Shown here piece after piece: positions 1,406-11,047 of a DNA stretch of 11,047 bases. The stretch covers positions 1-11,047 of the forward strand of contig JACMJD010000301.1 in assembly GCA_014380825.1 (NCBI GenBank). Direction: 5' to 3'. This DNA comes from Phycisphaerae bacterium (GTDB lineage: Bacteria; Planctomycetota; Phycisphaerae; Tepidisphaerales; Tepidisphaeraceae). The notes below the pieces were generated by a model. That model had not been told where the DNA came from, searched no databases, and saw only the letters and a list, made by a program, of their open reading frames with translations. Numbering within the stretch: the first letter of the stretch is position 1; each line of letters begins with the position of its first letter. Made by a program: the position numbers and the translations under genes.

Positions 1406-1490
1406 CAGAGGTTAGAGGTTAGAGGGCAGAGGTCAGGGAAGAAATTGAATTCGTCTTCCCTGCCCTCTGCACTCTGACCTCTGCCCTCTA
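1406..1490. repeat. Palindrome 2, purine-rich, overlapping the stop codon of the sua5 fusion
   Basis: Two 36-base arms (1406-1441 and 1455-1490) are inverted copies with about 30 of 36 positions matching. The loop is 13 bases. The left arm itself contains short tandem copies of AGAGGTT and AGAGGG-like units. The outer end of the right arm supplies the TAG stop codon (1488-1490, minus strand) of the sua5-phosphatase fusion gene. The element lies between two genes transcribed leftwards and ends 20 bases before the rpiB start, so it could form a hairpin in a shared transcript. Confidence 0.75.
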
Positions 1491-2606
1491 CGCAAGCACT
1501 GTTTCCTTCAACCGCTTCTCGATCAGACTTTTGAGCATGACCGCCAGTTCATTGTACAGCGAAGCGTCGCCGCCAATGGGGTCTTCTACGTCGCCGGCGG
1601 GGTCGAGCGATACGGTCTTTTCCGCCGCACCGGGCACGAGCGATGTCACCGCTTGAAGATGACTTCGCTGCATCGCGAAGATGATGTCGGCCTGGTGAAT
1701 CAGCTCGACACTCAGCGTGCGCGAGCGATGCTTGGATAGATCCGCGCCGAGCGTTTTCACCGCATCGACCGCCTGCGGCGTTGCCCGCACGCCGGGCATC
1801 GCCCAACTGCCGGCGGACATCACGATCACGCCTTTGCTTTCGAGCTGCTCTTCGCTCACGCCTAGATGTTGCGCGATCACGTGCCGCGCGATCGCCTCCG
1901 CCATCGGTGAGCGGCAAGTGTTTCCGCTGCACACGAACAGCACGGTGGTGCGCAGCAGGCGCTCGATGATTCGCTGATCGTAAATTCCGGTCCGCACAAT
2001 TTCCCACTTGTCCTTGCCGACGCGAAGGATCGTCGACGGCTTTGCGTATCGCGGCTGGGCCGCATCCAGCACTAGGTCGACTTTGCCCTCCAGATGATCA
2101 AATGATTGCACGCCCGCCGTGGTTTTCGGTTCGACCAGCGTGAGGGCAACCGGTGCTCGCACTTGTTCGAGCACATCGCGCGCGACAATGTGATCCGGGC
2201 ATCGCAGCGTGATGATGTTGTCATCGTACAGATCCGCGACGTTGACCTTCTTGCTGCTCGCGACCTCGCGCTGTCGCGCGGGCGACACTTCAAACATTAA
2301 CCCCACCGGACCGGGCAAGAGCTTCTTCATGATGCGACGACCGAGATCGCCGACATCGTCAAGAAACTCCATCGCCGCTTGCGGCTTAGCGAGGTGAACC
2401 GTGAACGGACGAGCATCCCCACCGCCGCGCAGCTCGCGCAATCGCGCAATCGCTTCCGGTCGATCCAGCGCACCAGCCGCGCCATAGACCGTTTCAGTCG
2501 GCAGCACGACCACACCGCCCGCGCGGAGTTTTTCGCCCGCGCGCGCGATCTGCGCGTCGTAATCAGCCACATCGAAAATATTCACGACATTGGCGGACAT
2601 CTGCAT
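1488..2606 (-). CDS. Fusion of threonylcarbamoyl-AMP synthase (Sua5/YwlC) with a YwlE-like protein arginine/tyrosine phosphatase
   Basis: A 372-residue two-domain protein. Residues about 8-215 are a Sua5/YrdC domain, which makes threonylcarbamoyl-AMP from threonine, bicarbonate and ATP for t6A37 in ANN-decoding tRNAs. It shows PTETVYG (36-42) and PSTILRV (190-196). The usual KGRP stretch is altered to RGGGDARP (60-67). Residues about 219-365 are a low-molecular-weight phosphatase with the CX5R loop CSGNTCRS (Cys226, Arg232) and the general-acid motif EDPIGGD (Asp342). The Thr in NTCRS matches the Thr that favours phosphoarginine in YwlE; classical tyrosine phosphatases usually have Ile there. 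The chosen start is the ATG at 2606; GTG 2609 and ATG 2600 are alternatives. A promoter-like sequence ends nine bases upstream of it, so the mRNA may be nearly leaderless. Separate neighbouring genes in Bacillus encode the same two activities. Confidence 0.9.
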   Translation of the reverse strand: MQMSANVVNIFDVADYDAQIARAGEKLRAGGVVVLPTETVYGAAGALDRPEAIARLRELRGGGDARPFTVHLAKPQAAMEFLDDVGDLGRRIMKKLLPGPVGLMFEVSPARQREVASSKKVNVADLYDDNIITLRCPDHIVARDVLEQVRAPVALTLVEPKTTAGVQSFDHLEGKVDLVLDAAQPRYAKPSTILRVGKDKWEIVRTGIYDQRIIERLLRTTVLFVCSGNTCRSPMAEAIARHVIAQHLGVSEEQLESKGVIVMSAGSWAMPGVRATPQAVDAVKTLGADLSKHRSRTLSVELIHQADIIFAMQRSHLQAVTSLVPGAAEKTVSLDPAGDVEDPIGGDASLYNELAVMLKSLIEKRLKETVLA

Positions 2607-2614
2607 CACGACCG

Positions 2615-7487: not shown

Positions 7488-8099
7488 CTAATCTTTTTGC
7501 TTTGTCGCGCCCAGTTCCTTTGCGATCTCGGATTCGAGTTCGTCCAATTTCCCCAACTCGGATTTCTCCTGCGCGAGCACATCCGCCTGGATCATGCGAT
7601 CGATCTCGTCGTCGGTGATCGTCTCCACGCCCGCTGAAGCGGGCTCGCCAGCGCTTGTTGCGGCGCTTTCCATGCTGTCGAGGAAGACTTCCATCCGTTC
7701 TTCCATCGATCCCGCCTGCGCGACGGCGAGTTCCCACTCCGCCTGCGTTTTGGTCAGGTCCATTTCGCCGAACACGCGCCCGATCTCGCGGGCCATCAGG
7801 TTCATGCTCTCGGCGAACTGCTGACTGCTCGCCGCCTGCTGCTGGATCAGCATCGCGTTCTTGATCGCCAGCAGTTGCCGCTCGAGCATTTTCTTGACAG
7901 TCGCGGTTTTTTTCAGCGCGTTGCGGATGAATAGATACTGACCATTGTCGCCGATCTTCTTCGCGTGCTGCGCGTTCTTGATGAAGTCTTCGGAGAACTT
8001 CTCCTGCTGCCGGATCGACCGCTCGATCGCGCGCACGCCCTGCCGGATTTTCATCTCCCGCTCGATGCGGCGCTCGTCTTTTGATTTGAACAATCCCAT
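7488..8099 (-). CDS. ESCRT-III-like (CHMP1/Did2-like) coiled-coil protein
   Basis: A 203-residue, almost entirely helical protein with no signal peptide. The start is the ATG at 8099 (MGLFKSK); a longer frame would translate the palindrome upstream. The layout follows the ESCRT-III core: a short basic-hydrophobic N-terminus, a basic helix (about 8-48), a GDNGQ turn (50-54), a second long basic helix (55-112), then a break and EMDLTKTQ (112-119), a helix ending FLDSMESAATSA (139-150), and an acidic C-terminal part with DDEIDRMI (163-170) and LDELESEIAKEL (185-196). From memory, human CHMP1 has MDLQK, then EDSMSSATT, then VDSLI at matching places and a MIT-binding C-terminal helix. A basic first half and acidic second half is typical of the family. 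The PspA N-terminal signature is absent. It is probably a membrane-remodelling filament subunit, and is last in a minus-strand run of related genes. Confidence 0.65.
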   Translation of the reverse strand: MGLFKSKDERRIEREMKIRQGVRAIERSIRQQEKFSEDFIKNAQHAKKIGDNGQYLFIRNALKKTATVKKMLERQLLAIKNAMLIQQQAASSQQFAESMNLMAREIGRVFGEMDLTKTQAEWELAVAQAGSMEERMEVFLDSMESAATSAGEPASAGVETITDDEIDRMIQADVLAQEKSELGKLDELESEIAKELGATKQKD

Positions 8100-8111
8100 A
8101 AGATTTTCTTC

Positions 8112-8190
8112 GCCACAGATGGGGACAGATGCACACAGATGAAATACAGAATTCAATTCTTATCTGTGTTCATCTTTCCCCATCTGTGGC
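8112..8190. repeat. Palindrome 4, between two ESCRT-III-like genes
   Basis: Two 29-base arms (8112-8140 and 8162-8190) match as inverted copies at 27 of 29 positions around a 21-base loop. Each arm is three 10-base units carrying ACAGATG or a close variant. The outer base of the right arm is also the last base of the TAG stop (8190-8192, minus) of the upstream gene. The other end stops 13 bases from the start codon of the next gene. CACAGATG-rich palindromes of this kind are, to my recollection, dispersed in planctomycete and related genomes; copy number was not checked. Confidence 0.8.
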
Positions 8191-8804
8191 TAAAGGTCCC
8201 CGTCTTTTGCCGCGTGCCGTTTGCGGACAGCTTTGTCAGCCTGATCGAATGCTTCTTCCTGTTTTACTGCGCCGCGGTCAATGTCGTTCCAGATGTTCAT
8301 CAGTTCCTGACCAGCACCGGACAGACCAGCGGCGCTAAGCGCGTCCTTGTCGCTTTGCGCGCCCAGTTCCAGAATCTGATCCAGCCGCTCCTGGTACATA
8401 TCCTGCGAAACCGAATCATCTTCAATCCATCCACTGATCTTCGCGACATCGGTGTCGGTGACATTCAACCGCCCGAGCGCCCGGCCGCTCTGTTTGTTTT
8501 CCTGAATCATCCGCAGGCGGCTGACGGTGAGCAGTTCTTTGCTGCGCAAGTTCAACTCGCGCGCGCTCATCAACTGCTCCTGCGTCTTCAACTCGAAATC
8601 CTGCGCGAGTGCTTTCCGGAGTTCCGGTGATTTCTGGGTGGCGCCCTGCTGAAAGATCTTCTGCTTATCGAGGCTCATCTGCTCGATCTTCTTGAACAGC
8701 CGATCGCGCTGCTTGGTGAGCAGGATCTCCTCCCGCCGCAGCTCTTGCTTGTCGAGTTGGCTGAGAGTTTTCTTCTTGCCGAAGATTTTGTCGATGAGTG
8801 CCAT
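8190..8804 (-). CDS. ESCRT-III-like (CHMP6/Vps20-like) coiled-coil protein
   Basis: A 204-residue helical cytosolic protein with no signal peptide or enzyme motif. The N-terminus MALIDKIFGKKK is short, amphipathic and basic, like the membrane-inserting starts of ESCRT-III subunits. A first helix (about 15-57) contains TKQRDRLFKKIEQMSLDKQ (30-48), similar in spacing to the KQQRDKL stretch of human CHMP6. A break near ATQKSP (55-60) leads to a second helix (61-110). VTDTDVAKISGWIEDDSVSQ (115-134) and ERLDQIL (139-145) parallel the helix-4 region of CHMP6. A last amphipathic helix is near 165-177. The first 14 residues also resemble an internal stretch of the upstream gene (MPLIDRIRSLFARKG), which supports common ancestry. 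No good ribosome-binding site is seen. Palindromes flank it on both sides. Confidence 0.6.
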   Translation of the reverse strand: MALIDKIFGKKKTLSQLDKQELRREEILLTKQRDRLFKKIEQMSLDKQKIFQQGATQKSPELRKALAQDFELKTQEQLMSARELNLRSKELLTVSRLRMIQENKQSGRALGRLNVTDTDVAKISGWIEDDSVSQDMYQERLDQILELGAQSDKDALSAAGLSGAGQELMNIWNDIDRGAVKQEEAFDQADKAVRKRHAAKDGDL

Positions 8805-8815
8805 GCAGTTCGTCT

Positions 8816-8887
8816 CGTGGCATGGGCGTCTCGCCCGTGCGCGTGCGGCTCAAGCCGCCGAAGCATGGGCGAGACGCCCATGCCACG
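8816..8887. repeat. Palindrome 5, GC-rich, between two ESCRT-III-like genes
   Basis: Two 25-base arms (8816-8840 and 8863-8887) are reverse complements with one mismatch. Each contains the smaller palindrome GGGCGTCTCGCCC or its complement. The 22-base centre has its own GCGGC/GCCGC pairing, so the whole folds as one long hairpin. It begins 10 bases after the TGA of the 509-residue gene and ends 11 bases before the next start codon. It would strongly obstruct or stabilise the operon mRNA here. No transposase or target duplication is visible. Confidence 0.8.
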
Positions 8888-8897
8888 GTCAAGTTGA

Positions 8898-10427
8898 TCA
8901 ACTCGCTTCCGGCTCAGCACGACGCTTCGGGTCCGCTTGCGGTTTCGCCGGCTCGCGGGTGCGCGATGGCGGCTCAGCATCGCTCGCTCCTGTCGCCGTT
9001 GTGCGATCGTTTGTCGCCGTCGCGTCCGGACTCTTCTGGCCGGTCTCCAGTTCCAATTCTTCGTACAGCGCCTGCTCCTCCTCCGTCATTCCCGCCGTCG
9101 CTGCGACACCCGCCACACTATCCGCCAGCTCAGTATCGGCTTGCAATTGGGCGAGCATCTCTTCCGCGGCGGCTGCGTCGGAGGCGATCTCTTCGCTGTC
9201 GGGCAGTTGCGCGGTTTGGCCTTGTTGCGTCAGCTCGAGATTGTGGAGGTGCGTGCTGACGACGTTCACTTGCTGGTTCAGCACCTGAACCATTTGCTGC
9301 CGCCGCTCAATGTCTTTGCGGAGTTGCAGCAACTGCTGCGTGACGCGCTTTTTCGTCAGCGGCGCGCGAGCGTTTTTGAACTGCTCGCGCAGCTCGTCGT
9401 CCTTTCCTTCCAGCGCTGTGATTTCCTCATACGCACGTTCGCGCTGCTGCGACAGCGCGGCCCGGCGCTCGGACAGGAACGCGACCTTTTTTTCTGTCTC
9501 GCCCTTGCGGGCGAACAGCGATCGGATGCGATCAATCAGCGGCATGCCTGAACCTCCCGCCATCAAACCTCCCGCCGAACTTGCATTAGACACGACATCG
9601 GACTTGCTCGATGTAGAAATCGGCGCGCTTCCTTCACGGAACAGCACGACGCGCCCGTCGAGTCGCTTGGCAGCCAAACCCGGGTTGGCCTTGGCGAATG
9701 ATTTTACCTCGGCTTCGACCAGTTGGAGAGGCAACTGCGTTTTGGCGGCGATTTTGTCGCTGACGATGCCGCTGGTAAGCAACTCGACGCGTGCGGCCTC
9801 GATTTCGCCTCGGATTCGCTGGCGTTTTTCGTTCTCGGCCTCGGGGTCGAACAGGTCGACCAGCGCCTTCGTCTCCGGCGGGCCGTACACCGACCACCCG
9901 CCCGCGCCATTTGGCTCGGCGAGAATCACCGTCCGCTGCGCTGTGCGTTCGGCCACGCCGCGCGCTTCGATCGTGAAGCCGCTGGTCGAAACCATCACGA
10001 CCGTCATCGGCACATTCGCCACCGGCGGCGGGAGCGTTCGCAGGAACGCTTCGACGTCTTTCGAATCCATCGCCTTGGTCTCTTTGCCGGCGATCAAATC
10101 ACGCGTTGGCGAGGCGCATACGACGCGGAGATGTCCGACCGAGCGCGAAAACCAGAAGAGCCGCTTTTGCTTGAGCGGGACGTCGATCATTTTTCCGATC
10201 GGCATCGATTCCTGGAGCGCGCGATCGGGAACGTTCATCTCGGACATCGTGCGCTTCAGTTCCACGCCGCGATCGGATTCGGCCGGCGCATTGTGCAGCA
10301 GCGCCGTGATCGCGCGGCGGCCGCGCGTGGTGTCGAGGACGAGGCGCGGATCGTCGAGCAGTCGCGTGACGTGCTCGATCATCTGCCGCTCGGCGAGCTG
10401 GTGAGAAGATGGATCAGTGTTCTTCAT
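8898..10427 (-). CDS. Winged-helix plus ESCRT-III-like fusion protein (CHMP7-like architecture)
   Basis: A 509-residue soluble protein. I choose ATG 10427, whose bases overlap the end of the preceding small gene; an earlier frame start at 10481 lies inside that gene. Residues about 85-200 look like an alpha/beta domain; VVMVSTSGFTIEARGVAER (143-161) recalls the last core strand and helix of Mrr-type nuclease domains, but no catalytic Asp/Glu-X-Lys is evident. Residues about 205-265 read as a winged helix (GIVSDKIAAKTQLPLQLVEA, then the wing RLDGRVVLFRE). After a Ser/Gly linker (270-294), MPLIDRIRSLFARKG (295-309) opens an ESCRT-III-like domain: basic helix hairpin about 312-400, then EEMLAQLQADTELADSVAG (422-440) and EEEQALYEELELE (449-461), matching the helix-4 and acidic helix-5 pattern of Snf7/CHMP4. 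The tail from 465 is disordered. CHMP7 also joins winged helices to ESCRT-III. The assignment comes from reading by eye. Confidence 0.6.
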   Translation of the reverse strand: MKNTDPSSHQLAERQMIEHVTRLLDDPRLVLDTTRGRRAITALLHNAPAESDRGVELKRTMSEMNVPDRALQESMPIGKMIDVPLKQKRLFWFSRSVGHLRVVCASPTRDLIAGKETKAMDSKDVEAFLRTLPPPVANVPMTVVMVSTSGFTIEARGVAERTAQRTVILAEPNGAGGWSVYGPPETKALVDLFDPEAENEKRQRIRGEIEAARVELLTSGIVSDKIAAKTQLPLQLVEAEVKSFAKANPGLAAKRLDGRVVLFREGSAPISTSSKSDVVSNASSAGGLMAGGSGMPLIDRIRSLFARKGETEKKVAFLSERRAALSQQRERAYEEITALEGKDDELREQFKNARAPLTKKRVTQQLLQLRKDIERRQQMVQVLNQQVNVVSTHLHNLELTQQGQTAQLPDSEEIASDAAAAEEMLAQLQADTELADSVAGVAATAGMTEEEQALYEELELETGQKSPDATATNDRTTATGASDAEPPSRTREPAKPQADPKRRAEPEAS

Positions 10428-10524
10428 TCGTCGTGCCACGGATTCGTGCGATGATCGTGACAAGTGCGAGCAGCGCCGCAAAAGTCCAACCGATCACTGA
10501 GAGAATGCCGTAAAAGTATCCCAA
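10414..10524 (-). CDS. Small single-pass membrane protein, 36 residues
   Basis: A short reading frame starting at TTG 10524 with GGAG seven bases upstream, located one base after the stop of the preceding gene. It overlaps the first bases of the next gene by 14 bases, a typical translational-coupling arrangement. The product begins GYFYGILSVIGW, continues as one uninterrupted hydrophobic helix (about residues 3-27) and ends in a basic then acidic tail, ARIRGTTNEEH. I do not recognise a family. The fit between two operon genes and the strong transmembrane character support a real gene. It may anchor or recruit the neighbouring soluble ESCRT-III-like proteins at the membrane, which is only inference. 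A longer version from an upstream GTG is possible. Confidence 0.5.
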   Translation of the reverse strand: MGYFYGILSVIGWTFAALLALVTIIARIRGTTNEEH

Positions 10525-10525
10525 C

Positions 10526-11047
10526 TCAAAACTCCGCTTCAGCGGTTGCAGCGACGCGCGAGCCACATCGCGGGCAGAAACCGGAACCAGCCGGCAGAAA
10601 TTTATCGCAACCGTCGCGACCGCATTTGCCTTGTAGCGCGCCGGGCAGCATGACGTCCGCGTGCGGCGAGCGCGACGCCAGCACGTTGAACACTTGCGCC
10701 GCCAGCGCCTGCCGCAGCGTGCGGCCGGTACGGTTGATATATCGCCACTGTGCCGCCGCCGCCAGCATCATCGGTACGCCCCACCAAGCTCCGATGATAG
10801 CCGTCGCCAGCGTGCACGCGATCCAGAGCACGTTGATCTGCACGCCAAAGGTGGGCGGATCGATTGGCGATAGCTCATGTCGCTTGGCGACGGCGTTGTA
10901 CGTTTCGACCACGCCTCGAATGTCTCGCACGTGCAGCACCATCTGCCACAGTGACAAGACGTGTGCCGCGATCAGCAGGAGCGCAAATCCCTCGGCCGCG
11001 ATCAGTACGCGCGGAGCGGTGGCGAATTCGCGGACGATGTGCGGCAA
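10526..11047 (-). CDS. Membrane protein with C-terminal zinc ribbon (5' end outside window)
   Basis: 173 residues are visible. The first codon at the edge is TTG, which may be a start or an internal Leu, so the N-terminus is uncertain. A hydrophobic span at about 13-38 and a hairpin-like pair at about 68-98 are consistent with three membrane segments. The region 101-135 is basic and soluble. The C-terminus is a zinc ribbon: CGRDGC (142-147), then CPRCG (158-162), that is C-X4-C and C-X2-C with an aromatic Phe before the second pair. I do not recognise a named family. One base separates it from the small membrane protein gene, so it belongs to the same operon. A membrane-bound zinc-ribbon protein could serve as an adaptor or sensor for the ESCRT-III-like proteins; that is inference. 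Confidence 0.7.
   Translation of the reverse strand: MPHIVREFATAPRVLIAAEGFALLLIAAHVLSLWQMVLHVRDIRGVVETYNAVAKRHELSPIDPPTFGVQINVLWIACTLATAIIGAWWGVPMMLAAAAQWRYINRTGRTLRQALAAQVFNVLASRSPHADVMLPGALQGKCGRDGCDKFLPAGSGFCPRCGSRVAATAEAEF

Follow-up and report, generated by a model that had tools for sequence, protein, structure and literature searches.

Positions 1 to 11,047 of contig JACMJD010000301.1 (assembly GCA_014380825.1, a Phycisphaerae bacterium) make up the stretch analyzed here, 11,047 nucleotides that we call the window. Three consecutive minus-strand genes, E1, E2 and E3, form a cluster that we consider to be probably a bacterial ESCRT-III-type system; together with a Vps4-like ATPase that carries an MIT domain and an AAA domain, it is likely to constitute a membrane-remodeling machine. 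Judged by its sequence, E1 is an ESCRT-III protein. E3 is predicted from its structural model to combine a winged helix with helices in an ESCRT-III-like layout, and E2 appears to be a conserved partner. Database relatives are numerous (2908 for E1, 1804 for E2 and 695 for E3 at E ≤ 0.001) and the order E3-E2-E1 is repeated in related genomes, so the cluster is more than a chance arrangement. The genes lie where an earlier note, made from the DNA letters, had placed three ESCRT-III-type subunits:

7488..8099, minus strand: E1, ATG at 8099, 203 amino acids, with an MGLFK start, a basic helical hairpin and acidic C-terminal helices
8190..8804, minus strand: E2, 204 amino acids, helical conserved partner
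8898..10427, minus strand: E3, ATG at 10427, 509 amino acids, with an N-terminal alpha/beta part, a predicted winged helix and an ESCRT-III-like helical region
9636..9839, minus strand: winged-helix-like part of E3, residues 200–267 of the 512-residue model (probable placing)
9042..9545, minus strand: ESCRT-III-like helical region of E3, model residues 298–465, beginning MPLIDRIRSLF

The profile of the E1 family was searched against 177,635 PDB sequences, with matches taken at E ≤ 10. Nine of the ten matches were SNF7, CHMP3 or CHMP2A (best SNF7, 4.1e-4); the sole match outside ESCRT-III was FtsA (0.21), and neither PspA nor Vipp1 occurred among the ten. The Pfam Snf7 model recognized the window E1 at E 0.039 and 14 bits, under its cut-off of 27.3, and matched 25 of 44 E1 family members at E ≤ 0.5 (best 3.7e-6), the next family reaching 11 of 44. 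None of 14 control genomes passed the Snf7 cut-off. Because S. acidocaldarius is among the controls that fail, the cut-off evidently misses archaeal ESCRT-III. Snf7 matches were also found in three of five relatives' genomes, none of them above the cut-off. When profiles were compared with hhalign, E1 aligned to Snf7 at 4.2e-5 and to CHMP3 at 2.4e-4, both better than the alignment of Snf7 to CHMP3 (4.6e-3). Shuffles that preserved the heptad phase did not reach the E1 score for either reference, Snf7 or CHMP3 (0 of 60 for each), and reversed profiles also fell short. Composition alone cannot explain the match, because E2 and the C-terminal region of E3 (E3C) are equally helical and have no ESCRT-III match.

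The AlphaFold2 model of E1 (mean predicted local distance difference test score, pLDDT, 71) places helices at residues 7–49, 52–111, 115–147 and 163–202. It has the predicted layout of an ESCRT-III protein, in which helices 1 and 2 form a hairpin, later helices follow it, the core is basic and the tail acidic. ESCRT-III chains took ranks 1–9 when the model was searched with Foldseek (E 4e-3 to 0.13, no single one significant), with PspA and Vipp1 chains ranked below them; VIA-align likewise listed PspA and Vipp1 under the ESCRT-III rows. The split in charge described in the earlier note is present in all three proteins. Counted as K+R minus D+E, it is +10 over residues 1–100 and -15 over the remainder of E1, +9 and -8 in E2, and +6 and -16 in the C-terminal part of E3. 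Across 44 E1 relatives the charge ranges from +8 to +15 over the first 105 residues and from -10 to -25 over the remainder, and the alignments show a conserved acidic C-terminal helix with leucines.

E1 could instead be a divergent PspA/Vipp1 protein, in which case the cluster would be a planctomycete version of the phage-shock system for envelope stress. PspA and Vipp1 belong to the same superfamily, have the same helical-hairpin fold and are bacterial; their chains do appear lower in the Foldseek lists, and one Vipp1 chain ranks second for E3. Against this, the PspA_IM30 profile gave no match to the window E1 at E ≤ 1 and is absent among the 25 of 43 families listed for the 44 E1 relatives, and, as noted, the PDB matches of E1 contain neither protein. 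PspA scored above its cut-off in just 7 of 38 E1-bearing genomes (38 of 70 such genomes), and in none of ten comprising the Tepidisphaeraceae-like set and L015, the most diverged of 15 loci compared. E1 is also accompanied by several partners and by a linked MIT-AAA ATPase, a linkage that, to our knowledge, is no PspA trait. We regard the PspA/Vipp1 identity as very unlikely and, on these sequence comparisons, do not favor it. The contention of ESCRT-III rather than PspA/Vipp1 type is supported by sequence for E1; the ESCRT-III-like layout of E3 draws on predicted structure only, and E2 gave no ESCRT-III match.

E3 was modeled with AlphaFold2 as 512 residues, three of which precede the ATG, with a pLDDT of 83 and a predicted template-modeling score (pTM) of 0.56. 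The model shows an alpha/beta part, a winged-helix-like segment at 200–267 (helix-helix-helix-strand-strand) and helices at 312–355, 359–404, 414–441 and 452–465. Ranks 1–7 in Foldseek comprised six CdvB2 chains and the single Vipp1 chain (E 0.16–0.23); winged-helix chains such as 2dk5 and 2qvo followed at E 0.3–0.43, for which aligned ranges were not printed. VIA-align returned many unspecific helical hairpins and unrelated coiled coils, with CT398 first and Snf7 ninth. Sequence searches with E3C, for which the alignments are shallow, recovered general coiled-coil matches and no ESCRT-III. CHMP7 consists of winged helices and an ESCRT-III core, and the modeled E3 resembles it in having a winged helix joined to an ESCRT-III-like helix layout. 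E3 differs in showing one winged helix, in its extra alpha/beta part, in having no sequence link to ESCRT-III and in that its halves are often separate genes outside the group of the window. There E3C is frequently a gene of its own, of 220–270 amino acids, in the same place (e.g., L070 and L064), and the helical region of E3 aligns to this stand-alone gene with 81.6% hhalign probability (1.1e-5, 96 columns). The CHMP7-like character proposed for E3 in the earlier note is supported by the modeled winged helix and helix layout only. At L070:3936-5474, L082:12590-14098 and L083:4886-6379, E3-type N-terminal parts begin with an additional segment that, by eye, resembles a MerR-type DNA-binding domain.

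No ESCRT-III match to E2 was found in sequence searches, and its proposed membership in that family is not supported by them. The E2 family aligned over 201 columns to a gene of about 205 amino acids found at the corresponding position in other planctomycetes (hhalign 91.6%, 8e-7), and by this comparison the two are one family. E2 is best described from its sequence as a conserved partner. Profiles of E1, E2 and E3C compared in pairs showed no significant relation, and we do not claim that three ESCRT-III subunits can be demonstrated. The cluster thus comprises one subunit recognized by sequence, one predicted by modeling and one conserved partner.

As the earlier note had stated, no Vps4-like gene is present among the reading frames examined in the window. 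Such an ATPase is encoded beside E1 in other planctomycetes, and elsewhere in the genome in most of the relatives closest to the window. In L015, E1 is followed by a 373-amino-acid protein that has a helical domain at its N-terminus and a single AAA domain. Of the other 14 genomes, which form the window's group, 9 encode orthologues of this protein (54–61% identity) away from E1; in the remaining five, whose assembly completeness is not stated, only FtsH-like AAA proteins were found. Outside this group, a same-strand AAA gene lies within 3.5 kb of E1 in at least 25 of 29 loci, compared with 0 of 12 inside it. The 25 is a lower bound, as the gene caller missed the ATPase of L089, which lies on the strand of E1 at a distance of 1.8 kb. 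Six further loci with an E1 match (L003, L008, L009, L066, L080 and L090), where an overlapping frame was chosen, were left out of the linkage and neighbor counts.

The ATPases fall into two classes, C1 (about 375 amino acids) and C2 (about 410 amino acids), and both flank E1 in L064, L071, L078, L084 and L092. A C2 query against ten genomes of the window's set and L015 returned C1 genes only. Each class has a single AAA domain, with Walker A in 20/20 C1 and 20/21 C2 proteins and the Walker B pattern in 19/20 and 20/21. The N-terminus of C2 is, by profile comparison, a VPS4-type MIT domain: its best PDB match was the MIT domain of VPS4B (SKD1) at 2.3e-4, covering positions 6–75 of 85 (70 of 85). 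VPS4A and VPS4B accounted for 8 of 23 rows, and consensus TPR designs, summed over their repeats, reached 2.4e-4. When C1 was included in the N-terminal profile, VPS4B MIT fell to 0.0014 and TPR designs scored better; single N-terminal pieces matched TPR_2 in seven of ten cases and MIT in one of ten, all under the Pfam cut-offs. The best NCBIfam model for five ATPases was CdvC (archaeal Vps4) for two, CDC48 for two and the proteasome-activating ATPase for one, none above cut-off; the CdvC match in the L015 protein spans nearly its whole length. The AAA cores of C1 are nearest to the D2 domain of Cdc48/p97 in all 20 proteins, and those of C2 are nearest to yeast Vps4 in 11 of 21. In a tree with few references and long branches, both classes stand apart from Vps4 and the choice between a Vps4 and a Cdc48 grouping is not settled. 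Two approaches were set aside: Vps4_C as proof of a Vps4 identity, since p97 D2 passes it as well, and a whole-ATPase profile search of the PDB (best 60 of 382 matches), in which p97/Cdc48 lead as their two domains sum and which is of no use for class assignment. Our use of the name Vps4-like for the ATPase is based on its MIT-type domain, its single AAA domain and its linkage to E1, and not on the tree.

The affinity of the C1 cores for Cdc48/p97 D2, together with the weak TPR_2 matches of the N-termini, raises the alternative that the ATPase is an unfoldase of the Cdc48 kind whose adaptor domain is TPR-like. E1–E3 would then be coiled-coil clients or adaptors of a protein-quality or cytoskeletal system that is under kinase control and does not shape membranes; the general coiled-coil matches of E3C and the kinase genes common among the neighbors would also suit this reading. 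This explanation has to contend with the specific resemblance of E1 to ESCRT-III and with C2 N-termini that match the VPS4 MIT domain across the whole domain. The motif [AG]TN.PW.[LIM]D, moreover, is found in 19/20 C1 proteins, 21/21 C2 proteins and yeast Vps4, but not in the p97/Cdc48 domains listed. We judge a Cdc48-type system to be distinctly unlikely.

Two genes near the ATPases were noted in passing. A gene of 620–670 amino acids follows the C1 ATPase (L015:10105-11970, L064:10513-12411 and L070:8580-10583) and, on visual inspection, its start looks SPFH-like and its end propeller-like; no Pfam family was found in it and an SPFH identity is not claimed. In L073, L077, L079 and L085–L088, a gene of about 250–280 amino acids stands between the C2 ATPase and E1. 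The L085 copy, the only one tested, is a Kdo/WaaP-type kinase (PF06293, 91.7 bits).

An ESCRT-III-type reading of the cluster invites comparison with the archaeal Cdv system (CdvB paralogues and CdvC/Vps4). Both have an ESCRT-III-type protein, several helical partners and, encoded close by, an ATPase that joins an MIT domain to a single AAA domain; the best-model matches to CdvC given above add to the likeness. The planctomycete system differs in being bacterial, in an E3 whose alpha/beta part and winged helix precede the helical region, in neighbors that are kinase and zinc-ribbon membrane proteins and in the presence of two ATPase classes in some loci. With the eukaryotic proteins (CHMP2, CHMP3, CHMP1 and Snf7) E1 has in common the matches of its profile and model to CHMP and Snf7 chains, and C2 matches the MIT domain of VPS4A/B at its N-terminus. 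Unlike them, E1 alone falls under the Pfam cut-off and the planctomycete AAA core is not settled as Vps4.

We propose that E1 and its partners would form filaments on the inner membrane. E3 may take its seat on the membrane through the hydrophobic MPLIDRIRSLF start and the winged helix, and so nucleate assembly; E2 and E1 would be added after it, extending the filament. The MIT domain of the ATPase would grip E1 by its acidic C-terminal helix, and the AAA ring would pull subunits out, such that the membrane is bent, sealed or cut. The serine/threonine kinase with zinc ribbons and the small membrane proteins, which are conserved neighbors, may place and switch the system. Of this scheme, the relationship of E1, the order of the genes, the linkage of the ATPase and the MIT-type domain in one of its classes are established here; the E1 and E3 folds are predicted, and the part played by E2, polymer formation, binding by MIT, action on membranes and control by the kinase are inferred. 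That planctomycetes own a full multi-subunit machine of ESCRT-III and Vps4 type, with E3 as nucleator, E2 and E1 as partners, MIT-AAA ATPases and kinase control, and that it is the first in bacteria, seems to us somewhat more probable than its opposite.

E1 was detected in 56 of 392 Planctomycetota genomes. The C1 ATPase exceeded 350 bits in 39 of the 392, of which 34 also have E1 (Fisher 8e-29, kinship not corrected); the 350-bit line was set after the scores had been seen, four candidates were scored per genome, and in two of the 39 genomes (G096 and G320) the match is partial. Near E1, the 12 loci of the window's group have an E2/E4 gene in 8, E3C in 8, a kinase in 4 and a small membrane protein in 4. 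The corresponding counts for the 29 other loci are 17, 14, 10 and 6; a good number of the loci counted are short, and the model used for the kinase is a general one. On the minus strand at L013:3141-3887 (PF00069, 53 bits), L008:39-806 and L003:2937-3662, a second protein-kinase gene, divergent, points away from the first gene of the cluster.

Since E1, as detected, is present in only 56 of the 392 genomes, its system cannot be what planctomycetes in general use to divide, and a phylum-wide division role is not supported. Candidate roles are work on internal membranes, repair and a form of budding peculiar to one lineage. FtsZ was above its cut-off in none of the 392 genomes (three weaker matches; 13 of 14 controls above), consistent with passages describing Planctomycetota as lacking FtsZ (PMC6952346). 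The formation of planctomycete internal membranes is described as unknown in a section of PMC6524685. For a phylum with such membranes and without FtsZ, the cluster supplies named genes.

The patchy occurrence of E1 would also suit a late acquisition of the cluster from an archaeal or eukaryotic donor, with one ESCRT-III gene kept for a new purpose. A 2024 survey, in its passages on the subject, reports the pairing of ESCRT-III with Vps4 from archaea and eukaryotes only (PMC10936438), which also speaks for this reading. E1 is found, however, across very diverged planctomycetes, with 32–44% identity to the window outside the window's group, and the linked ATPases and partners have diverged too. 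That all of these have diverged suggests long residence in planctomycetes, and we think a late acquisition unlikely. Among 200 genomes of the phylum of a Gemmatimonadaceae-titled assembly, E1 occurred once, as a near-identical copy on a 3.2-kb contig (JADZCT010000058.1; L014/L104) that is 81% identical to the window and is probably contamination.

A 2023 review states, in its relevant portion, that bacteria have no clear Vps4 homologue and tend toward a single ESCRT-III gene (PMC7615534); in the accessible text of PMC2799638 and PMC3177640, ESCRT appears in the reference lists only. The literature searched, which had preprints outside its scope and included few subscription journals, yielded, among the papers listed, nothing on ESCRT-III with Vps4 in planctomycetes. 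Although machinery of the ESCRT-III/Vps4 kind is itself known, its occurrence in bacteria with an architecture of its own is likely new relative to published accounts. A linked ESCRT-III and MIT-AAA pair in planctomycetes, if true, changes where the machinery is thought to occur.

Two further frames precede E3 in the window:

10414..10524, minus strand: 36-amino-acid hydrophobic reading frame, a putative gene, TTG start at 10524
10526..11047, minus strand: M4, a membrane protein with a C-terminal zinc-ribbon-like Cys4 motif, truncated by the window end

M4 has two hydrophobic stretches, scores 118 bits against M4 of relatives and gives weak zinc-ribbon Pfam rows, all below cut-off. It is separated by one base from the 36-amino-acid frame, which in turn overlaps the start of E3; this is the one-base spacing and overlap that had been pointed out upstream of the three genes. 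An alternative start of E3, the TTG at 10481 (a 527-amino-acid reading), is probably too long. The closest named relatives are Tepidisphaeraceae, Phycisphaerae and Phycisphaerales assemblies, in agreement with the planctomycete source surmised from the letters.

The gaps between E1 and E2 (90 bp) and between E2 and E3 (93 bp) both contain palindromic repeats. The first is filled by an imperfect palindrome at 8109-8193 (32-nucleotide arms, 91%) and the second by one at 8816-8887 (35-nucleotide arms, 86%); they resemble mobile repetitive extragenic palindromic (REP) or terminator-like repeats, and no Rfam family matched the window. The genes neighboring the cluster are of the ordinary housekeeping kind. 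At 1488-2609 (minus strand), one gene combines a Sua5/YrdC-type domain with a low-molecular-weight phosphotyrosine phosphatase (Pfam 97 and 88 bits).

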